Assembly: GCA_030431975.1 (NCBI GenBank)
Contig: JAUIHP010000007.1
Location: 1 to 64,000, forward strand
DNA length: 64,000 nucleotides
Source of the DNA: a bacterium
GTDB lineage: Bacteria; Eisenbacteria; RBG-16-71-46; CAIMUX01
Reading direction: 5' to 3'
Part shown: piece after piece, positions 4,989-21,263 of the stretch
Position numbering within the stretch: position 1 is the first letter of the stretch
How the letters are laid out: the number at the start of each line of letters is the position of its first letter
The notes under the pieces: model-generated
Databases searched by the model: none
Seen by the model: only the letters and a program-made list of their open reading frames with translations
Told to the model about the DNA's origin: nothing
Program-made: the position numbers and the translations under genes

Positions 4989-5518
4989 CCGCAGTCCTCC
5001 CGACGCGAAAGAGTCATCGTCCCGGCGCGGGACACTAGCAGCCGGCGTGCCCTCCCTGGCGGAGAATCTGGACGGCTCCTGGAGTTGGTTGACGCATCTC
5101 GCCGCCTATGGTTAGCTCTTTCTGTCGTCGGCGCACGAAAGGGTGAGCGGGCGACGCTTCCGACCCGATGTTTTCAGAGAGGGCGGGTCGAAGGGGGCGC
5201 GAGGTGTTTTCCGCGCTCCAACCACGTTGCGCCGTTACGACCAGCACGACACCACTTCGTCCATTACGCAAGGGTGACGGGGCAGCGATCAGCTCATAAG
5301 GAACCGAGTTGTCGAAGACGGCCAGGGATGGGCCGAATGCGCGTACCTGCGTCGCTCGTCGCCTGATACTAGCTGGCTGTTTCGACGAAAACTCGATTAG
5401 GTTGAACCGCCGAACTTGAACCGATCCGATTATCGATCCGAGACGTCTTTGGCGTCTCGTCCACCCGTCGATGCCTGCATCGACAATCGCCCTACGTGTA
5501 GGGGGGAATCGCACTTTC
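4989..5518. other. Long intergenic region before the DUF4912 gene
   Basis: A 530-bp gap between divergent genes. Frames that cross it on either strand are compositional shadows with no recognisable domain. A TTGACG hexamer occurs near 5088 but lacks a good partner -10. The last 80 bases hold three successive inverted repeats, described separately. The rest shows no feature I can support. Confidence 0.5.
5439..5503 (+). promoter_or_regulatory. Three stem-loops in the leader, the last covering the ribosome binding site
   Basis: Three inverted repeats follow each other: CGAGACG/CGTCTCG (5439-5459, 7-nt loop), GTCGATGC/GCATCGAC (5467-5484) and CCCTAC/GTAGGG (5490-5503). The Shine-Dalgarno tract AGGGGGGAA (about 5500-5508), which serves the ATG at 5519, begins inside the right arm of the third. 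Folding of that hairpin would partly hide it. This looks like a translational control leader; what it would sense is unknown. Confidence 0.45.
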
Positions 5519-7729
5519 ATGCGTAGAGCCGAACTCGAAGCGATGACCAAGAAGGACCTCTTGGATCTGGCCCGGGACAAGGACATCTCCGGACGCAGCC
5601 GGATGGACAAGGACGAACTCGTCGAGGCGCTGGGGCCGAAGCGCCGTGCCCGAAAACCGGCCGCGTCGAGCGAGGGACAAGGTGCGACAGGCGGTCAAGG
5701 TACCGCGCGGGGACGAGCTTCGACAGGCGGGCGGGCTTCCACACGGGGACAAGGTTCGGCGAACGGACAGGCGTCATCACGTGCGCAGGGTTCGGCAAAC
5801 GGGCGGCCGTCATCACGTGCGCAAGGTTCGGGAAACGAACAGGAGTCGTCACGCGGCGCTGCGGCGACGGCAGCCGCGGCGGATGCGGTGAAATCAGCCC
5901 CGTCCTCCGACCGTGGAGTATCCGTCTCTGACCGCGACCTATCCGCCGATGGCGCCTCGGACGCCAGAACTTCGGACGCCCGAACTTCGGAAGGACAATC
6001 CCGCCACTCAAACGATCGCGGAGAGCGTGGGGATCGAAACGGCCGAGACCGCGGAAGCCGACGCGGGCGGCGCCGGGGACGTCGGGACGACGCCTCTGTC
6101 GAGGTCGATCCCTGGAATCGCGTCGACGCCGAGGACCCGAACTATGGTCGGTTCCTGGCTCCCCAAAAGAACAACGGTCGCCGCGGACCCCAACGGGGGA
6201 ACGGCCCACAGCGGAACGGCCAGGCAAGGAACGGTCAGCAGCGCAACGGACAACAGACCGCTCGCGGTGAATCTTTGGCGGACCGGTCCGAGAGGGGACG
6301 GGGGCGCGCCCTCGACAGATCCCAGAACGCCCGCGATTCCGTGCGGCGATCCGGTGAAGCTCGCGGCGGCGTTGCCTACACCCCGGTCCACAACCGTTCC
6401 GAGTCCAGGAACGAGGACGAGGGTCGCAACGGGCGTTCCCGTCGCCGTCGTCGCGACGATCGTGGGAAACGCCGAAACCGGGATACGCGGGCTCAGGACA
6501 ATGGAACGCGCGATCGGAACCCACGGCCGAGTGGCCCTTCCAACGAGACCTCCGTTCCGCGCGTCTGGAAAGAGGACACGGATCGCCGGCAGGGCCACCA
6601 TCGCCTTCGCCAGGAAAAGCGGGGGCCGGAAACCGACCGAAGGGGTCGTCAGGGGGATCCTCGCAACGCGGGTGCCGAGTCCGGACCGGGAGCGACTCCG
6701 CGGGAACTGGACGCGCTCGGCGTCATCGGACCGGTGGATCCGAGTGAGATCGCAAAGGAACTCGAAGCGATCGATTCCGCGGGTCGGTCGGATCGAAACA
6801 CCAACCGTTGCCGCATCATGGCCCGGGATCCCTACTGGATTCATGCCTACTGGGAGCTGTACGAAGACCGCGTGGCCGAGGCCCGTTCGGAGCTGGGAAT
6901 CCAGAGCGACGGCCGTTGGGTGCTGCGGGTGCACAGCCTGCCTTCGCAGAGCCGCTCCGGTCGCGGAGGCCAACAGCCGCCGGGCTTCTTCGACATCGAT
7001 GTCGACGCCTCACAGAACAACGCCTACGTCCACGTCGGCATCGCCGAGCGTGACTACCGCGTCGACTTGGGAGTCGTTTCGGCCCAGGGATTGTTCTTCC
7101 CCCTCGCCTCCAGCAACCGCGTAACGACACCGCCGGATGACGGTGGTCAACCGGTGGGCGACAAGGAATCGTTCTACGAGAAGTCCGGTGGAGCGCCGAC
7201 CGCGCGAATCGACAACCCGGATCCGACTCCGATGCATCGCGACATGGATGCACCGAAGCAGCGGGTTCGCGCTCGCGGGCGAGGCCGCCGGTCTGGAAAC
7301 GATGACCCGGTGGCGCAAGCCGCGTCGACGTCGGGAAGCGGCGGGGTTTCCGTTCTTTCGAGTCCGGTCCTCGAGCCGGAACCGGGACTGCGCGCGACCT
7401 CGCCGACGCACTGGGCAGACGGCCCGAAGTTGGTTTCGGCGCCGGGACCGACGCTTTCGTTGGGAACATCTGAGGGAGAGTTCGATCTGGTCGTCCAGAC
7501 GGAACTCATCGTTTCAGGGGCCACGGATCCGAACGCCCAGGTGACCATACAGGGAATCCCTGTGGAGCTTCGGGAGGACGGATCGTTTACGGTTCGCTTC
7601 GAGCTCAACGAGGGGGGCCAAACGGTTCCTGTGGTTGCCGTTTCTGAGGACGAATCGGTCCGCAAGACGATCACGCCCAAGGTCACGATCAAGACGACGA
7701 TGAAGACCGAGGACATAGCGGACGATTGA
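5519..7729 (+). CDS. Rho-N/SAP-like plus DUF4912 protein with an RG-rich disordered linker
   Basis: A 736-aa protein. Residues 3-40 resemble the Rho termination factor N-terminal motif (LEAMTKKDLLDLARDKD ... KDELVEAL). Residues about 45-420 are low complexity, first Gly/Ser/Gln/Arg and then Arg/Gly/Asn rich with many RG and RNG steps, typical of nucleic-acid-binding disordered regions. DUF4912 follows (RIMARDPYWIHAYWELYED to FFPLASSNRVTTPP, about 430-545). The C-terminus (about 650-720, VSGATDPNAQVTIQGIPVEL) looks like a small Ig-like or glucodextranase-type beta domain. The ATG at 5519 follows AGGGGGGAA; the frame is open from 5471. DUF4912 genes often neighbour GH57/DUF1957 genes, as here (80 bp apart), suggesting a shared role in glucan metabolism or its control. 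The function of DUF4912 is not established. Confidence 0.85.
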   Translation: MRRAELEAMTKKDLLDLARDKDISGRSRMDKDELVEALGPKRRARKPAASSEGQGATGGQGTARGRASTGGRASTRGQGSANGQASSRAQGSANGRPSSRAQGSGNEQESSRGAAATAAAADAVKSAPSSDRGVSVSDRDLSADGASDARTSDARTSEGQSRHSNDRGERGDRNGRDRGSRRGRRRGRRDDASVEVDPWNRVDAEDPNYGRFLAPQKNNGRRGPQRGNGPQRNGQARNGQQRNGQQTARGESLADRSERGRGRALDRSQNARDSVRRSGEARGGVAYTPVHNRSESRNEDEGRNGRSRRRRRDDRGKRRNRDTRAQDNGTRDRNPRPSGPSNETSVPRVWKEDTDRRQGHHRLRQEKRGPETDRRGRQGDPRNAGAESGPGATPRELDALGVIGPVDPSEIAKELEAIDSAGRSDRNTNRCRIMARDPYWIHAYWELYEDRVAEARSELGIQSDGRWVLRVHSLPSQSRSGRGGQQPPGFFDIDVDASQNNAYVHVGIAERDYRVDLGVVSAQGLFFPLASSNRVTTPPDDGGQPVGDKESFYEKSGGAPTARIDNPDPTPMHRDMDAPKQRVRARGRGRRSGNDDPVAQAASTSGSGGVSVLSSPVLEPEPGLRATSPTHWADGPKLVSAPGPTLSLGTSEGEFDLVVQTELIVSGATDPNAQVTIQGIPVELREDGSFTVRFELNEGGQTVPVVAVSEDESVRKTITPKVTIKTTMKTEDIADD

Positions 7730-9597: not shown

Positions 9598-10673
9598 GCG
9601 ACACACTCCAGATCGGCAAGAGCGTCCTTGAGTTCTCCCGGTTTCAACAGAAAGCGCGGGTTCTTCGGCCGTCCACGCTTCTCGCGTTGCGCTTCGAGGA
9701 AGGTCTGGTAGATCAGCCAACCTCCGGGCTGCACGGACTTCGCGATCTGGGGCAACAGGTCCCGATCGAGAAAGCGAAAACAGGTCACGACGGAATAGGT
9801 TGACGGCGGAAGCCAGCGACGGATGACTGCCGCCTGACGCAGATCGGCTTGATGGAATCTTGGGAAACCGGACCGGCTCTCGGATGGACGGGTTCGCTGT
9901 TCCAGCGCGCGAAGTCGGCGGGCTTTCTCCAGCGCTTCTGGGAGGATGTCGACCCCGAAGACTCTTCGCGCTGCGCGACGAGCGAGAAAGATGGTGTTCC
10001 TTCCGGTCCCGCAAGCGAGATCCAGGAAGTTCCCGGAATGCGGAAGCTCGGGCTCCCACTCGGCGAGAAACGGAGCCGGTTCCCATGCCGGTCGCCTTGC
10101 CGGTCCGGTCTCGTGACACAGGGCTTCCAATACACGCCGGTCTGTCCCGGACGACTTCCTCGGGATGTGCCAGTAGAAGACGGGGCCGGAGCGTTTGCTC
10201 GCGAGTTGAGCGGCGGTATCGATCAGGGGCTCCAATTGAGTTCCGCAAAGGAGCAACGGACGGGACACCGGAGGCAGGAGGTGTGAACCCTCAGACAGGG
10301 CGGTCAACGGGAGGGAAGCAGCGCCGGGAAGGTGTCCGCGAAGGAACGAGGGGACCGTTCGAAGGTCAAGAACGGTCAGTTCGAATGATGCGGAACGGTC
10401 GGTTGAAGTGGCAGGCGAGCCGGGGTCAGCTGCGTTGATTCGATCCGGGCCCGAGAGCCCGATTGTCGCGCCGGGAGTCGCCGGATCAACTGGGGCAGAT
10501 GTACCTGTTCGCTCGGTCCGAAACACATCGGGGCCCGCCTTCAACTCGGGGCGAGAGGTGAAGACTTCAAGGGGGCGACCGGAAGACTCCCCGTTTCTGA
10601 ACGGAAGGCAGATTGGATCCGAGTCAGTTGCCGCGACCGTAACGGATTGCCTACCAACGAATAACTTCACCAC
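9531..10673 (-). CDS. Rhodanese-like plus SAM-dependent methyltransferase fusion
   Basis: A 380-aa protein with two domains. Residues about 97-175 resemble a rhodanese fold (ELTVLDLRTVPSFLRGHLPGA), with Cys143 in RPLLLCGTQ at the active-loop position. Residues about 198-375 form a class I methyltransferase with motif I FLDLACGTGRNTIFLA (about 216-231), VDILPEALEKA, FHQADLRQ and PGGWLIYQTF, closest in style to TehB/UbiE-like enzymes. The first 95 residues are low complexity with no domain. The frame opens with two adjacent GTG codons and no clear ribosome binding site, so the real start may be further in. Rhodanese-methyltransferase fusions suggest sulfur or metalloid chemistry, but the substrate is unknown. 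Its last 67 bp run antisense to the end of the GH57 gene. Confidence 0.82.
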   Translation of the reverse strand: MVKLFVGRQSVTVAATDSDPICLPFRNGESSGRPLEVFTSRPELKAGPDVFRTERTGTSAPVDPATPGATIGLSGPDRINAADPGSPATSTDRSASFELTVLDLRTVPSFLRGHLPGAASLPLTALSEGSHLLPPVSRPLLLCGTQLEPLIDTAAQLASKRSGPVFYWHIPRKSSGTDRRVLEALCHETGPARRPAWEPAPFLAEWEPELPHSGNFLDLACGTGRNTIFLARRAARRVFGVDILPEALEKARRLRALEQRTRPSESRSGFPRFHQADLRQAAVIRRWLPPSTYSVVTCFRFLDRDLLPQIAKSVQPGGWLIYQTFLEAQREKRGRPKNPRFLLKPGELKDALADLECVAYEEGEDAEGDVLASFCGRARD

Positions 10674-10806
10674 TCAGGGCCATCCCCTCCCTGGCCGATA
10701 CTCAGGTAGCCGCGTTGGCGTATCGGCACGGATTCGGACCCTTCCCCCTGCTTTGGGGTACGGGGCGTGGTAGAATCGATCCAGCACTCAACGCCGAAGG
10801 GACAAT

Positions 10807-12153
10807 ATGACGGCCTCTGTCCTTCAGGTTCATCCGTTTCTCGATCCCCACCTGTCCGAGAATCGTCCGGACATCGTTCGCTATCTCTACAGCCAATACC
10901 TCAGCGTCCAGCAGGGTGGCGAAGCCTACAACGAGTTTCTCAATCGCCTTCTCCATCCGGTTGGGGATGAGCGTCTGCTCGAGGCCAATCTGGCCACCTC
11001 TGCCTACTACATGAACGAGGCCATGCACTACGTGCACAGTCTCCTCGACATGATCGACCCGGAGGCGCGAGCGCCGGTAACCCCGCGGGATGAGGTCGTG
11101 GCCTGTTCCGATGCCGGCGAACTGCTCCACATGATCTTCAATGCCTCCGATCCGCGGACCGTGTTCGAGGCGCGCCGGAAGCTTTATCTGACCAAGCTCT
11201 TCTTCGATGTCGACTACTCGTGGGAAGTGCAGCGCGGCCCCCAACACAAAGAGTTCTACGAATCCATCCTCCGCGACGAGATCTTCCGTCACGTCAACGA
11301 GCACCGCACGGTCGAGATGTGTTACGCGCTCGGACCGGACGGACGCGTCATCGACTACGGGGAGGGCGAGCCGGGGCCGGGCCAGGAGTGTTGGACCTTC
11401 GATGTCCAGCAGGTCGAGATGCTTCGCGAAGGCCGGCCCATTCGGTTGAACATCTACTACTACGTCTGCCGCTTCAAACGCGAAGTTCGACCGTATCAGT
11501 ACCGAAGCGGTCAGGATCGTTACCAGTTCGGCCTTTCCGAGATGTTCCCCGGCATGCAGAAGCGACGGGGCGCTTCCATCGTCAGCAAGATGATTCGTAA
11601 GGGAGAGGCCGATCCTCGCGCGATCCAGGATCTCATCGGCGCCATGTTCATCGTCGAGAACCAGAGTGAGCTCGAAGACCTCAAAGAGATTCTCTTCGAC
11701 CGGTTCGGAGGATACTTCCGGGTCAAGAACGTGGTCGACACAGCGACCAACCCGCACGATCACGAGCGCCTCAATCCCCATGCGAGCACGGACTACCGGG
11801 TCTACAAGGCCGAGATGGACGTGCTTTACAATCCGCCGAACGATCCGCAGCCGATGCCGTACTTCTTCACCGTCGAGGTGCAGCTCTACACGCTCGAGAA
11901 CTATCTGCGAACGCTTCACAGCTCGAGCTATGCGAATCATCAGTCCTTGAAGCGCCGGCAGTTTCTCGACGGTTTGGTTCCCTACCTGTTCCCGTCGGCG
12001 ATCTACGGCGAGGATGTCGTGCGCCGTCTCGTCGAGTCATCGGATCCGGTTCATGATCGTTCGACCATCGCGACGGCGAAGGCCCGTGGAACTCTGGCCG
12101 GACCGGCCATGATGGGTGCCCCGGTCAAGCCAGGGGCGGGATGGGTCAAGTGA
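10807..12153 (+). CDS. RelA/SpoT-like nucleotidyltransferase-fold protein (divergent)
   Basis: A 448-aa protein. The C-terminal half (about 255-400) has the order of motifs of a RelA/SpoT synthetase-type domain: KRRGASIVSKMIRKG, then DLIGAMFIVENQSEL (about 275), STDYRVYKAEM, and FTVEVQLYTLENYLRT (about 354) followed by a His/Lys helix (SYANHQSLKRR). The first 200 residues are mostly helical and unlike the HD hydrolase of long RSH enzymes. Whether it makes (p)ppGpp is uncertain because key G-loop residues are not obvious. It starts at ATG with GAAGGGA upstream; TAGAAT at 10771 could be the -10. Its 3' end overlaps an unknown gene, so the two probably act together. Confidence 0.55.
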   Translation: MTASVLQVHPFLDPHLSENRPDIVRYLYSQYLSVQQGGEAYNEFLNRLLHPVGDERLLEANLATSAYYMNEAMHYVHSLLDMIDPEARAPVTPRDEVVACSDAGELLHMIFNASDPRTVFEARRKLYLTKLFFDVDYSWEVQRGPQHKEFYESILRDEIFRHVNEHRTVEMCYALGPDGRVIDYGEGEPGPGQECWTFDVQQVEMLREGRPIRLNIYYYVCRFKREVRPYQYRSGQDRYQFGLSEMFPGMQKRRGASIVSKMIRKGEADPRAIQDLIGAMFIVENQSELEDLKEILFDRFGGYFRVKNVVDTATNPHDHERLNPHASTDYRVYKAEMDVLYNPPNDPQPMPYFFTVEVQLYTLENYLRTLHSSSYANHQSLKRRQFLDGLVPYLFPSAIYGEDVVRRLVESSDPVHDRSTIATAKARGTLAGPAMMGAPVKPGAGWVK

Positions 12154-12794
12154 ACGACCCGGTGCCCTTCGATCTCACCCCGCGTGAGCCGTTTTCCAGT
12201 GACGAACTTCGATTCCTCGGAGACCCGCGCCCGTTCCAGGTGCGGGACAAGGTCATGGAGAACCTGCAACACGCGTTCGATCGATTGCGGAACCGCTTGA
12301 GCGGCCATCTTCAGGTCGGGCACTACCTGGCGCCGACCGGTGTGGACTTCTCCCAGGGAAAGATGGGGAAGGGTGAGCATCTCGACGGCTTGCCCTACTC
12401 TTTCGTCGACCTGCCGAGGTTCATTCAGGAAGACCAGTGTTTTACCTACCGTGCGTTGTTCTGGTGGGGGGACGGGGTTTCCTTTTCGCTGGTTCTGGGC
12501 GGACGTCATCTCGACGACTACCGGCGTCGCCTCCTCGAGAATCTGGAGATTCTCGACGCACTCGATGTCTACGTGGCGACGTCGGAGAATCCTTGGGAGT
12601 GGCAGCGCGGGCGAGGTCACACCCTGCGTGTCGAGCAGGGGACCGAGTCGAAGCTGGCCCGGCTCTTCCGGGCGCAGAGCTTCCTCAAGGTGTCGCGCTA
12701 TCTCGAGTTCGATGATCCGGAGTTCGTTGAGAACCGCGTCGATGAAGCCGGGCTCTATACCTTCCGTGCGCTGGAACCGCTCGTTCTCGCTTGA
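12141..12794 (+). CDS. Unknown protein paired with the RelA/SpoT-like gene
   Basis: A 217-aa soluble protein that I do not recognise. It is rich in aromatic and acidic residues, with no signal peptide or membrane segment. Notable stretches are HYLAPTGVDFSQGKMGKGEH, the aromatic YRALFWWGDGVSFSLVLGGRH and a helical DDYRRRLLENLEILDALDVY. It overlaps the upstream gene by 13 bp if ATG at 12141 is used, or by 4 bp (GTGA) if GTG at 12150 is used; neither has a strong ribosome binding site, and GTGA junctions are common in this window. The overlap makes co-translation and a shared function with the RelA/SpoT-like protein likely, for example as partner or regulator. Confidence 0.7.
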   Translation: MGQVNDPVPFDLTPREPFSSDELRFLGDPRPFQVRDKVMENLQHAFDRLRNRLSGHLQVGHYLAPTGVDFSQGKMGKGEHLDGLPYSFVDLPRFIQEDQCFTYRALFWWGDGVSFSLVLGGRHLDDYRRRLLENLEILDALDVYVATSENPWEWQRGRGHTLRVEQGTESKLARLFRAQSFLKVSRYLEFDDPEFVENRVDEAGLYTFRALEPLVLA

Positions 12795-12927
12795 TTCGTC
12801 CACCGCGTCGATCCGGAGCCGCAAAGTCAGTGATCGGGCTACTTCGTCCCGGCGATGAAGGTGGCTCTTGGGTCGACCTGAACTCTCCGCTACATTCGAC
12901 GAACTGTGAGCTGCCGCCTGGCCACCC

Positions 12928-12982
12928 AGTTGCAATCCAGTAGCAATTAAGTAGCAATTAAGTAGCAATCTAGTAGCAACGT
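12928..12982 (+). repeat. Five 11-bp tandem repeats upstream of addB
   Basis: Five consecutive 11-bp units (AGTTGCAATCC, AGTAGCAATTA twice, AGTAGCAATCT, AGTAGCAACGT) end at a TATACT box. The unit length is close to one helical turn, so each copy faces the same side of the DNA, as expected of a regulator-binding array. It is the most AT-rich stretch in the neighbourhood. Confidence 0.8.
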
Positions 12983-12987
12983 ATACT
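12982..12987 (+). promoter_or_regulatory. Candidate -10 box of the addBA operon
   Basis: TATACT (5 of 6 to consensus) lies directly after the 11-bp array. No convincing -35 hexamer is found at 16-18 bp; the array occupies that place, which would suit an activator-dependent promoter. Transcription would start near 12994, leaving a very short leader if translation begins at 13003. Confidence 0.4.
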
Positions 12988-13002
12988 ACGGCCCACCTTT
13001 CA

Positions 13003-16000
13003 ATGGTGGTCGCCGTGGCGGGATGGAACCCCTTGAGTCTCCGCTTTGTCATCGGACCGGCAGGATCCGGAAAGACCCACCACTGCCTCGCGCGTCTTCG
13101 TGAGCGGGAGCGTTCCGGCCGCGCCGGCATCTATCTCGTGCCGGAGCAGTTCACCTACTCGGCGGATCGCGAACTCCTCGCTGCAGACGACATGTTGGGA
13201 TTGCGGCACGTGCGTGTCTTCTCCTTTACGCGTTTGGTTTGGTGGCTGCAGGAGCGGGCCGGCGTCACTCCGCCGGAGTCGATCGATCCGGCGGTTCGTC
13301 CGATGTACCTGCGAGCTGTGCTCGAGCAGATGGGGCCGGAGAGTCTTGGGCCGTTGGCTTCACTGCGACGTCGACAAGGCATGTTGGGGCAACTGGGTCG
13401 GTTTGTCGGAGAAGTCCGCAACCACGGGACGGTCGAGTTTCTGACTCGGATCCAGGAACTGTCGGCCGATCGCGAGATTCCCGGGGCCGTTCGCGACAAA
13501 CTGTCCGTGCTCGGTCGGGTCGTGGGCGAGTACTCGCGACTCTTGAAGGACCGGGGCCGGATGGATCCGGAAGAGCACCTGTTTGGAGCGGCTCCGCTCC
13601 TGGAACGCGAGTCGGGTTTCCTCGCCGGATGTGCGGTCTACGTTGACGGTTTCCTTTCCTGGACTGCACGGGAGCGGGAGATCCTTCTGGGCTTGGCTCG
13701 TCACGCGGAAAGTGTCGAGATTGCGTTCTGTTGCGACGACCCGAAGGCAAACGGGAATGCGAACGCGAATGCGAACGCGAACGCGAATACGAACGCGAAC
13801 GCGAATACGAACGCGAACGCGAACGCGAACGCGAATGCGAATGCGAACGTGGACGTGAACGTGAACGCGGGGTCGGATGCGGAGTCGGCTCGGCTTCCGT
13901 TCCGACCGGTTCACAGAAGTCTGAAGACTCTCGAGACGGAGGTCCTTCGGGCGGGACTTCCGTTGCCGGATCGTATCGTGCTTCCCAACAGCAATCCCAT
14001 CCGTTTCCAGACGGGCTCGCTGAGCTTTCTGGAACGGGGGATCTACGCATTCGGTGCACGGCCCAGAGGTGAGGTGCTCGAGAGTGCGGCGTCAAGCCAT
14101 GCCTTGCCTGGGAATGCGACGCCAGGCAACCCAACCCCAGGCAACCCAATGCCAGGCATTGCCGGGACGGGAGGGGCGGCCCCTAGCGGTGTGACCCCAG
14201 CCAAGAGCGAATCGCCCGGTGTGACAGCGAACCTCAATGCAGGGTTGTCGGATCTTCCGCTCTTTTCACAGGCGGCGGAGGTCGCTGCTGCTCCTTCAAG
14301 CGTTTCGGGTTCTTCGCCGCGTGCAGCCGGATCGCAGCCGCCCGTGCCGATGCAGGAGTCTGCGGGCTCAGGCGGAACCACGTCCTCCGTTGCCAGCGAA
14401 CGCGATGGTGCAATCACCCTGCGTGCCGCGCGCGATCCGGAACACGAAGTGCGCGCCTGGGCTCGAACGATCGACCGATGGATTCGTTTGGATCCGGACG
14501 GGTTCCGGCCAGAGGAAGTCGCCGTCGTTGTTCGCGACATCGCACCTTATCGGGACTCCGTTTCCCGAATCTTCCCGCAGTACGGGATTCCGTTCTTCCT
14601 CGATGAACGTCGGTCCGTCCTGGCTCACCCTCGCGTGCGGCTGCTCCTGGGGGCCCTCGATGTTCTGCAGTCGCGTTGGCGTCGCGACTCTGTAGTCTCG
14701 GTTCTTCGAAACCCGCTTCTGCGGATCGCGCTCTCGTCCATCGACCTTCTCGAAAACACGTCACTCGAATCGGGCCGCAACTTCGAACGTTGGTACGATG
14801 AGATGCCCTGGGAACCACTGGGACATCTTCAGCGCAGTCGCTTCACCGGCACTTCAGGCGAAGTTATCTTTGATCCGGAACTCTACGATCCGGAAGCCGA
14901 CTTGTCGGACAGTTCGACGGTGGAGGAGGGGCCGGACGATGAGGATCTCCTGACCACTCGAACGACTCATGATCCGCAGGCGCCACACCCGGACGAGATT
15001 CGGCGAAAGTACCTGCTTCCTCTTCGTCAACTCGAAGTGTCGTGGGCGGAGGATGGTTGGACGGGAGGTGAGGTCGCTACGGGACTGGCGCGTCTCATGG
15101 ATGAGTGGGCGGGTCGGCAGATGCCGTCGAACTCGGAATGGGATCGTCGGGTTGCGGTTGCATTGACCGACCTGTTGAGCGAGTTGGCTCATCTTTGGGC
15201 GGACATTCCGGTCGAAGCGGACGAGGTGTCGCGCGCACTGCGAGAAGGTCTACTTACCCTGCGGCTGGGGGTGACTCCGGTTCGCCCGGGGCAGGTTGTC
15301 GTTGCGGACATTCAGCGCTCCCGCCTTCACGGGATTCGCGGTCTCATCGTTGGCGGAGTCAACGAAGGACGTTTCCCTCGCACCATCGTCGAGGATGGCG
15401 TGCTTGGCGACGCCGATCGCGCGGCCCTGGATCGACTGGGTCTATCTCTGGGACCGTCTGCAACCGAGCGGCAGGAAGAGGAGGCATACCTCTTCTATAT
15501 CGCACTGACGCGTGCTTCCGAGCGGATCGAGCTGACCTGGACGGGATCGGACGCCGACGGTAGTGAGTCGCAGCCCAGTGTTCTGCTCCGTGAGATCACG
15601 CGTCTGTTGCCGCAGACGGAAACCTGCATCGAGCCGTGGCGCGAAACCGAGTTGCCGTGGGACGAAGTTCAACGTGGTGCGGAGTTGAGCGCGGCGGTAC
15701 TGGGTCGGCTGTCCTCATGGTTGAAGGGGCCCACCGAGGATGCGGAACTCATGGCGTTTTGGCGCGAGATGCGCACCACGTCGCATAAGACTATCCACCG
15801 ATCGATGGAGCCGGCTGAAGATCTGTTCGTGCGTGGGGTTCGTGGACTCTTCTGGACTCCCGAGGACTTTCTTCCCGCGGAGCTGGCCGCGTTCGCGTTC
15901 CCCGATCCGATGGTCTCGAGCGTCTCTCGCCTTCAAGAGTTCGCTGTTTGCCCGTTTCAGAGTTTCGCCAAGAGTCTTCTCGAACTGAATCCACGTCCTG

Positions 16001-19900: not shown

Positions 19901-21263
19901 GGAGGGTCTCACCTACGGAGAGCTTGCGCTCTCGAACGGAGTCGAGCCCCGTTTGATCTCGGAGAAGATCGAACACGAGCCGCTGCCGACGAGCCGAGAG
20001 TTTGTCCTCGGCCGGGTCCGCATCACGGTCGTGGCGAAGGCGTGGCTTGGGACTCGATTCAAAGATGTGGCACGACCCCTGGAGGTCACCGCACCCGATG
20101 CGCGGGCTCGGCTCGAGGAGGAGGCTGGCGGACGACCCGGAGACCGAGCCGGAGACCGAGCCGGAGACCGAGCCGGAGACCGAGCTGGAGACCGAGCTGG
20201 AGACCGAGCTGGAGACCGGAACCACTCAGAGCTAGGGGAGTCGGTTGGCGATCGCAGCGGCACCGAGTCGCAGGCACGATCTGAAGACCTTGATGACGCG
20301 GAGGCGGGAGCACGAACCGAAAGTCGTAGCGATGCGGAGGCTACGGTCGATGAAGTGTTCGAACGTGTGGCCCGGAAGCGGGATGGGCTCCGTCTTGCCG
20401 ACATTCCGTCCTTGCGTGGCAAGTACTGGGTCACCGAGTTCAAGTCGGTGGAAGACTTTCGCCGGCATCGCGAGCTCGAGGATGAAGGAACTCAGCTGTG
20501 GATCGAGCCGAGGGGAGAGTCGCTGACGTACGAGTCCAGGATGGACGAGTCAAGCACGGACGCGTCACCAACGAACGAGTCGACAACGACGGCGTCGAGC
20601 ACAAAGACGTCGAGCACGGACGAGTCGGTCACTGACGAATCGACGACGGACGCGTCGATCACGAGAGGTGTGGAACCGCAGAGGGATCGCGGGGGGAGCC
20701 GCCGCGGGGTCATGTATCACTCGCTGTTGTCGCGCGTCGACTTCCGGCAACTTCGAGACAATGGAATGGACTCGCTCGTTCCATCCTTCCAGAACCAGGC
20801 GTGGTGGACTGAAGAGGATCGCGACTACGGTATCGAGACAGGAATCGACGCGTTCTTTCGGTCGGATCTCGGGCAACGTCTGGTGGAAGGATCGGTCCTT
20901 GAAAGAGAGGTCGCGTTCTCGTTGAAGTGGAGCCTTTCGGAGTTGGCCAATCACGTTCCCGAGTTGGCTGCGGAGCTACGTGCTGCCCAGTCTTCAGCCG
21001 AATCGGAATTGAGATCCACGGACGATCTTTGGGTTCTCCTGCAAGGCCGCCTCGACTGTGTCTTCAAGGACGGCGACCGATGGGTCGTCCTCGACTGGAA
21101 AACGGATCGGGTGACCGCGGAACAGGTCGACGCACGCGCTCGCATCTACGAGTCGCAAATGGCGCTTTACCGAGACGCTGTCGGCCGACTGTGGGGGCAC
21201 CCGGTGATCTCCGTGCTCGCATTTCTCCAATCGGGAGAGGTCCGGACCCACGAAGACTTGTAG
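16992..21263 (+). CDS. addA: Helicase-nuclease AddA subunit
   Basis: UvrD-like 3'-5' helicase with a C-terminal nuclease, partner of AddB. Walker A is at 42-50 (AGAGAGKTT), with TFTEKAARQM (motif Ia), VDEYQDVNGLQ (motif II), GDVKQSIYGFR (motif III), LTVHKSKGLEFPVV (motif V) and VALTRAEERL (motif VI). The nuclease reads GRLDCVFKDGDRWVVLDWKTDRV ending with YESQMALYRDAV. At 1423 aa it is larger than typical AddA (about 1200), partly because of two low-complexity insertions: Gly-Asp-Arg-Ala repeats (about 1050-1077) and a Ser/Thr/Asp/Glu-rich segment (about 1178-1218). GTG start in a GTGA overlap with addB. Confidence 0.95.
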   Translation: MSLSSKTSPTPASSPSPSRVFEWSVPQREAIETEGQDVLVAAGAGAGKTTVLVERILRKLRDGTIGSLDELLVVTFTEKAARQMRTRIYEALTQDEELRFHLPDLPRARIATIHAYCARLLREHFLLADVEPAFRVLDEHGSMEATEESLQETFHRWYGKTDEAGQEFERLIELAGFDEKGESLKLIVRRLYEYARTTPDSDSYLRELLAQDAPVSVDDIPWFEAFESRVEWECRTGTQLYEDALDLLDAAGMKVGPHRAAMDTIERCGAVPREFHRRLASEGLLSDGRVSWTRAPNGSGKVPGFKITHDTAKAHIGHAVQMSSIADAVLLSEESRRRGSLAVLIELVQDMRQRYESYKSRHGFLDFSDLETRTAYLLRRARETGVSIVRFQEVLVDEYQDVNGLQAEILNALATGGCRFRVGDVKQSIYGFRLADPTIFLREMEDPQSKTIFMNENHRSRPEILGFVNDVFSKVFDPSTIGSEYQQQKLIASKSASASETPVEIHFIDGGSKKECLALSDHWMDPTEIQPRWVAQRVAALASESELQDEEGLCDWSRVAILLRSSTRAETYARELHRLGVPAHFASTRSLLEEDAVRDLYSALRVIDNPRDDIALAATLRSPAFGFGAADLLVVRTAFPGAKTFLDALVGVAVGEDVTSAKGWDALTPPHPPKGLVVSGDVLVDDDANGMDPFAAWSGPPREDWESWVTAPLQERARAFLSALRRWRQQEGFDELRLFIMRLSDELGLVPMAFGAGDGARQRRCLSYLFDLAADYESERGHSLRGFLSRLRSLDDADALQSPEDESAEKAVQILTVHKSKGLEFPVVVVPQIEWRLSTKDRLASRIRIDRDWVGVRWFDPESYTRRESQARQLLEWRQEAKLREEEARVFYVALTRAEERLILFGSLNLSERKHFTGEDDAPPAPSSRMWVLRRRNATSVQGWLLDSFDWEQAQSVEHDLVSTLDLEGEEGLTYGELALSNGVEPRLISEKIEHEPLPTSREFVLGRVRITVVAKAWLGTRFKDVARPLEVTAPDARARLEEEAGGRPGDRAGDRAGDRAGDRAGDRAGDRAGDRNHSELGESVGDRSGTESQARSEDLDDAEAGARTESRSDAEATVDEVFERVARKRDGLRLADIPSLRGKYWVTEFKSVEDFRRHRELEDEGTQLWIEPRGESLTYESRMDESSTDASPTNESTTTASSTKTSSTDESVTDESTTDASITRGVEPQRDRGGSRRGVMYHSLLSRVDFRQLRDNGMDSLVPSFQNQAWWTEEDRDYGIETGIDAFFRSDLGQRLVEGSVLEREVAFSLKWSLSELANHVPELAAELRAAQSSAESELRSTDDLWVLLQGRLDCVFKDGDRWVVLDWKTDRVTAEQVDARARIYESQMALYRDAVGRLWGHPVISVLAFLQSGEVRTHEDL
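20139..20220 (+). repeat. In-frame 12-bp repeats in addA
   Basis: Seven units of GGAGACCGAGC(C/T), the last partial, encode (Gly-Asp-Arg-Ala)n ahead of the nuclease domain. The first units end in GCC and the later ones in GCT, which suggests block expansion from one end. The unit is itself two related hexamers. Confidence 0.95.

Follow-up and report, generated by a model that had tools for sequence, protein, structure and literature searches.

Background

RelA-like enzymes make alarmones other than ppGpp and also modify tRNA, as described in the sections of PMC11782079 drawn on here. The same sections describe the active site of FaRel2, a toxSAS: the triphosphate is held by R64, K66, S70, K74 and R77, D90 binds Mg2+, adenine is contacted by R64, R95, Q147 and G93, E145 confers specificity for adenosine, and the acceptor base is held by Y128 (PMC11782079). 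The RSH superfamily was surveyed in 2011 from PF04607 seeds, and the portion of that survey used here makes no mention of the branch described below (PMC3153485). In the accessible portion of a Bdellovibrio evolution study, the one open-licence paper found for TIGR04552, the family is a mere gene name in a mutation table (PMC9888234), and a search of the open-licence literature found no paper on TIGR04562.

The locus analysed here lies in a 64,000-nucleotide stretch of DNA (the window; positions 1 to 64,000 of contig JAUIHP010000007.1) from an assembly of 6.19 Mb. An earlier note on this DNA had drawn attention to an overlapping pair of open reading frames, the first coding for a divergent RelA/SpoT-like protein (P1) and the second for a protein of no recognisable family (P2), and had proposed that the two could form a nucleotide-signalling or toxin-partner module. 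Other genomes and loci are cited below by our own G and L numbers.

Results and discussion

The gene pair

Both reading frames are present at 10807-12794 on the + strand. P1 (10807..12153, +) is a predicted divergent RelA/SpoT-like (RSH-like) nucleotidyltransferase of 448 amino acids, and P2 (12141..12794, +) is a protein of 217 amino acids from an unnamed family with conserved G-E-N/H..G-F/L-P and R.LFWWG blocks. Counted from the P2 ATG at 12141, the overlap is 13 nt. An in-frame GTG at 12150 would shorten it to a 4-nt GTGA (12150..12153, +) composed of a possible GTG start of P2 and the TGA stop of P1. The P2 start at 12150 is more likely because the same GTGA junction occurs in G002, the sole other genome found with both P1 and P2. 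Both look like genuine genes: when the window is compared with G002 (NG86), P1 has a dN/dS of 0.319/1.073 and P2 one of 0.352/1.487. A scan of 10500-13100 found no promoters or terminators.

The surrounding DNA contains several short repeats. An array of an 11-bp unit (AGTAGCAATCA, 4.7 copies, 87% matches) is located at 12928-12979, between P2 and an AddB-like gene. In-frame repeats occur within the AddB-like gene (13742-13869, 6 bp x 21.3) and within an AddA-like gene (20133-20218, 12 bp x 7.2), where they encode Asn/Ala-rich and Asp-Arg-Ala-Gly stretches.

Relationship of P1 to RelA/SpoT proteins

P1 falls short of the cut-offs of the families that it resembles. The match to Pfam PF04607 (RelA_SpoT) has an E-value of 0.012 and 16.3 bits, the curated cut-off being 27, and the matches to NCBIfam TIGR04562 (E 0.0045) and TIGR04552 (E 0.0049) have 16.2 bits, with cut-offs of 140 and 125. 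Among the 11 P1 family members of the window's phylum (alignment A1), TIGR04562 matches eight (best E 5.9e-7), TIGR04552 seven (best E 4.9e-7), and PF04607 four at E <= 0.1 (best 0.012). RelA_SpoT is matched by one of four relatives found outside the phylum with the P1 profile (E 0.25) and by none of the other three. Three TIGR04552 proteins likewise match RelA_SpoT below the cut-off (E 0.0015, 0.19 and 3.3e-5). The TIGR04552 profile, searched against 385 genomes, matches a single member of the P1 family, that of G006 (E 1.1e-5, 25.6 bits), as well as the canonical Rel genes of G003 (E 3.1e-4) and G005 (E 4.9e-4), all below its cut-off. No match to the HD hydrolase, TGS or ACT domains was found in P1 (Pfam, E <= 1), and PDB sequence searches with P1 returned nothing convincing. 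A PAS_5 match in one of the 11 members (E 0.015) was set aside as weak.

Profile-profile comparisons connect P1 with Rel by way of TIGR04552. The P1 family (14 sequences) aligns by hhalign with 11 TIGR04552 proteins, all above the family cut-off and gathered from the 385 genomes, with a probability of 96.4% (P 1.1e-9) over 267 columns. The TIGR04552 proteins in turn align with 19 canonical Rel synthetase domains, selected by a motif rule from 30 Rel loci of the window's phylum, with a probability of 96.6% (P 6.7e-10) over 113 columns that run through the synthetase motifs. The direct comparison of P1 with Rel is weak (24-25%; for the 14 sequences, 24.0% and P 8.4e-4) and covers 44 columns at SIxxKMxR...DLIG. 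The set of 14 leaves out L078 (from G201; weak and in three pieces), which is part of the 15-sequence set of an earlier direct P1-Rel comparison. The observed scores are 78.6 for P1-TIGR04552, 72.7 for TIGR04552-Rel and 33.2 for P1-Rel. The corresponding maxima among 40 column shuffles each are 23.6, 20.3 and 23.2, and reversed alignments score 16.6, 18.2 and 12.6. The P2 alignment, used as a further control against the P1, TIGR04552 and Rel alignments, scores 13.9-16.2.

These comparisons support the classification of P1 as a divergent RelA/SpoT-like nucleotidyltransferase related to the TIGR04552/TIGR04562 branch, with its homology to Rel traced through TIGR04552. The RelA/SpoT-like character proposed in the earlier note is thus borne out by profile-profile comparison with controls and by the kept donor and metal residues, and the motifs quoted there, including DLIGAMFIV, are present and fall at conserved columns (D275, G278, E357 and Q359, each in 14 of 14 sequences). 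The note had further described the N-terminus as unlike that of known RSH enzymes. It does differ from Rel; however, part of it is common to TIGR04552 proteins, as the hhalign alignment takes in part of the N-terminal region from P1 residue 37 on. An AlphaFold2 model of P1 built from two sequences has a mean pLDDT of 39.7, too low for a fold search to be meaningful, with the N-terminal half helical at low confidence.

The predicted active site of P1

Much of the donor site known from FaRel2 has counterparts in P1. The basic donor helix SIxxKMxR (S257..K261..R264; 11575..11598, +) corresponds to S70, K74 and R77 of FaRel2, with the Lys and the Arg present in all 14 sequences and the Ser in 12 of them. 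In the next block (D275..G278.M280; 11629..11646, +), the catalytic, Mg-binding Asp and the Gly, counterparts of FaRel2 D90 and G93, are kept in 14/14. The Rel E(I/V)Q strand, with E145 and Q147 in FaRel2, is represented by E357-x-Q359 (11875..11883, +), again in 14/14. Other positions differ. Met occupies the place of FaRel2 R95 in every member of the P1 family, while the TIGR04552 relatives keep the Arg in 11/11. By ungapped extension, the FaRel2 R64 place (P1 residue 251) is variable and the K66 place (residue 253) is Arg in 12/14. P1 thus shows neither the R-x-K that precedes the donor helix in FaRel2 (R64, K66) nor the Arg that follows the Asp strand there (R95). R222-x-K224 (11470..11478, +), both residues of which are identical in 14/14, might be the R-x-K donor motif displaced by an insertion, with 35 residues separating it from S257 compared with an equivalent spacing of 6 in FaRel2.

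The acceptor side is more strongly altered. At the place of the Rel YQSLH, P1 has Y330-x-V-x-K334 (11794..11808, +), where the aromatic residue, the counterpart of FaRel2 Y128, is Tyr in 11 and Phe in 3 of the 14 sequences and the His is replaced by Lys in all of them. The K-x-N that precedes YQSLH in Rel is absent from the P1 family, leaving the aromatic residue as the only kept part of the guanosine acceptor motif K-x-N-x-Y-Q-S-L-H. From the mapping of residues across the P1, TIGR04552 and Rel alignments, the donor site appears to be largely retained in P1, unlike the site for the guanosine acceptor. Of the nucleotide-binding residues that the earlier note had singled out for inspection, those for ATP, together with the metal ligand, have largely recognisable counterparts in the alignment, and those for GDP, apart from the aromatic residue, are replaced.

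Two alternative readings of P1 bear directly on these residues. Activity could have been lost in P1, because Met stands throughout at the place of the adenine-stacking Arg and the FaRel2 R64 place is variable; with the further change of the YQSLH His to Lys, P1 could be a catalytically dead protein that serves as a nucleotide-binding sensor or scaffold. The complete identity of the metal Asp, the E-x-Q strand, K261 and R264 argues against such a loss, as does the Arg kept by the TIGR04552 relatives, which speaks for the activity of the wider group only, and we consider a dead enzyme unlikely. It is less probable still that P1 makes (p)ppGpp by means of an acceptor loop that has been rewritten. 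Such an enzyme would fit the kept donor site, the aromatic residue at the base-stacking place and the homology of P1 to the synthetase domain of Rel, whereas the missing acceptor motif and the canonical Rel already encoded in the same genome speak against it. We therefore give little weight to (p)ppGpp as the product of P1.

Distribution and genomic context of P1

P1 was found in 10 of the 11 genomes of its order, the exception being a genome that is 69% complete. It occurs in 11 of 59 relatives overall and in 11 of the 47 genomes of the phylum, and is missing from the other 36. In the wider sample P1 was detected in 15 of 385 genomes, with at most four candidates scored per genome; four of these genomes are outside the phylum, one of them with a weak match. 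In another phylum, that of G221, P1 is present in 7/7 genomes. Each strong carrier genome has one P1 match, and the window's own genome has one canonical Rel. Searches of 72,556 plasmid records and 50,697 phage records gave no match to P1 at E 0.01, and scans of viral contigs with the P1 and P2 alignments found no relative. P1 is apparently a stable, inherited chromosomal gene of some lineages, unlike a mobile toxin.

The association with P2 is much narrower. Of the 59 relatives, P2 was found in three: G051, which is unrelated, G002 and the genome of the window itself. In the last two, which are 2 of the 11 in-phylum P1 carriers, it adjoins P1. The other nine in-phylum carriers have no P2 match near P1 or anywhere else in the genome, and no P2 lies beside P1 at any of the seven loci of G221's phylum (flanks of 1.5 kb or less). 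Eight of the 10 in-phylum relatives have a convergent gene next after P1, and five such neighbours carry Pfam domains (L019, L022, L023, L024 and L026); neighbouring frames were called mechanically, their directions were taken from length, codon-position GC and, for these five, the Pfam matches, and several contigs end near the P1 gene. The two remaining cases are G002, where P2 follows, and G008, with a same-strand frame of 863 amino acids that matches no Pfam family at E 0.001. On the upstream side, six of the 10 in-phylum loci have, on the strand opposite to P1, a gene related to the rhodanese/methyltransferase gene of the window, although one of the six is a 46-residue match and another is 2.5 kb away. 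Given the convergent downstream genes and the lack of P2 near most P1 loci, P1 usually stands alone.

On this evidence P1 and P2 are not a general two-gene system; their adjacency is an ordinary local arrangement. The signalling or toxin-partner module envisaged in the earlier note is not supported by these counts or by the different context of P2 elsewhere: the pair is not conserved together, the very outcome that the note itself had named as speaking against its proposal. The claim that P1 and P2 form a general module can be dropped.

The same data bear on the possibility of a toxin-antitoxin or defence module, in which P1 would act as a toxin of the toxSAS kind, with P2 as antitoxin or sensor. 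The overlap of the two genes is compatible with such a module, and the altered acceptor motif might suit a tRNA-targeting toxSAS (targets as described in the sections of PMC11782079 used here). P1 also has a weak PADLOC match to the candidate defence model PDC-S33 (E 0.026) over residues 253-298, the donor-helix region. We nevertheless regard this possibility as very remote in view of the 9/11 in-phylum carriers with P1 and no P2, the 7/7 loci of G221's phylum with no P2 beside P1, the convergent neighbours in place of a conserved adjacent antitoxin gene, the single copy of P1 in 10/11 genomes of the order, and the plasmid and phage records without a match.

Neighbourhoods shared between P1 and TIGR04552 genes were compared at 22 loci. 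The largest cluster of neighbours is methyltransferase-containing and joins five loci of the window's order. Other clusters join two or three loci; they include a receiver-domain-like cluster at three and clusters at pairs of loci that share a genus (G352, G215) or a phylum (G358, G221). A TIGR04552 gene is located beside GH57-like and glgC-like genes (named by eye) at L142 and L143, in G352 and G215 of the same genus, an arrangement reminiscent of the window, where a GH57 gene also lies near P1. The gene at 5471-7729 of the window has a Rho_N-like start (just below the cut-off), an Arg/Gly-rich middle, a DUF4912 domain and a Glucodextran_B match near its end, and the gene after it codes for a GH57 branching enzyme. 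G001 and G008 likewise have a DUF4912-GH57 pair near P1.

The P2 family

P2 itself has no match in Pfam, NCBIfam, PADLOC or PHROGs, in agreement with the earlier description of a protein without a recognisable family. Its alignment of 29 members gives stray weak Pfam matches (AfaD in two members, AAA-ATPase_like in one at E 0.0083, DUF4303 in one) and two unconvincing matches to PDB sequences (E 0.51 and 0.69). A single-sequence structure model has a mean pLDDT of 33.0, again too low for a meaningful fold search.

In G051's phylum, searches with a three-row profile found relatives of P2 in 48 of the 77 genomes. Loci were retrieved for 30 of the 48 hits, and 27 of these entered the alignment (A3; 29 rows with the window and G002), L044, L055 and L058 being left out. 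These relatives are 22-29% identical to P2 and have invariant residues in common with it, concentrated in the GEN..GFP and R.LFWWG blocks. Upstream of them, one cluster of same-strand genes occurs at 25/30 loci and a second at 24/30; of the two examples tested, one from each cluster, one proved to be a PilZ protein (E 1.1e-6) and the other a MotB_plug/OmpA protein. At L039-L068 the recurring same-strand order is MotB-like, PilZ and P2 relative, often followed by a Mur-ligase-domain gene (FolC-like by eye). A link of the P2 family to c-di-GMP and motility in G051's phylum is possible. TIGR04552 as a partner of P2 in that phylum was found in 0/77 genomes, a count to be read beside control genomes that also gave no match. 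In the wider sample, where at most seven candidates were scored per genome, P2 was detected in 8 of 385 genomes. Three of the eight belong to additional lineages (G220, G195 and G324), and no P1 occurs within the 13-19 kb around P2 in these three.

Proposed function

These results lead us to favour, with moderate confidence, the reading of P1 as a transferase that uses ATP, has neither GDP nor GTP as its acceptor and is regulated by its N-terminal half. P1 probably binds ATP and Mg2+ at the usual donor site (S257, K261, R264, D275, E357 and Q359) and would then pass a pyrophosphate or nucleotidyl group to its acceptor. A non-GDP/GTP acceptor is proposed because the guanosine-acceptor loop is replaced and a canonical Rel is already present in the genome. 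The N-terminal half probably has a sensing or regulatory role. P2 is probably an unrelated protein that is translationally coupled to P1 in the window's bacterial family only; our guess is that in this family P2 may adjust P1 or make use of the P1 product, and it is dispensable for the retention of P1.

More speculatively, the P1 relatives could constitute an undescribed RelA-like branch of pyrophosphotransferases, fixed in at least two lineages and acting on a new acceptor (a nucleotide, RNA or protein), with P2 recruited in one family; we offer this larger picture tentatively and consider it doubtful as a whole. If it is true, bacteria with P1 would possess a second pathway, of alarmone or modification type, in addition to canonical Rel, with which P1 coexists in the window's genome. 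With a donor site that seems mostly kept, an acceptor site that seems rewritten and a regular presence in some lineages, the P1 branch is a good place to hunt for new acceptors. For the uncharacterised TIGR04552 family, a homology can now be proposed, together with an active site that is open to testing.

Comparison with known systems

Canonical Rel/RelA/SpoT synthetases (PF04607) have the same order of blocks as P1, namely SIxxKM, D..G, an aromatic residue, E-x-Q and H...K, as traced via TIGR04552. P1 differs from them in that no HD, TGS or ACT domain was found, the GDP/GTP loop is missing and the match stays below the Pfam cut-off. P1 has counterparts of S70, K74, R77, D90, G93, E145 and Q147 of the toxSAS FaRel2, and departs from it by the Met at the R95 place, by the lack of a conserved antitoxin gene and by the searches of plasmid and phage records, which gave no match. 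The P2 relatives of G051's phylum differ from P2 in their partners, which are PilZ and MotB-like genes there and P1 here.

The closest likeness is to the uncharacterised families TIGR04552 and TIGR04562. P1 is far below both cut-offs and has Met at the place of the Arg in D....R. In the hhalign alignment, the stretch of P1 from residue 116 to residue 275 is about 70 residues longer than that of the TIGR04552 protein at L108, and the P1 family, unlike TIGR04552, has a conserved FEAxRKLYLxKLFFDVDH-like block. At the same time, the alignment at 96.4% over 267 columns joins the two groups, which have the signature S...K, D, E-x-Q and H...K..Q in common.
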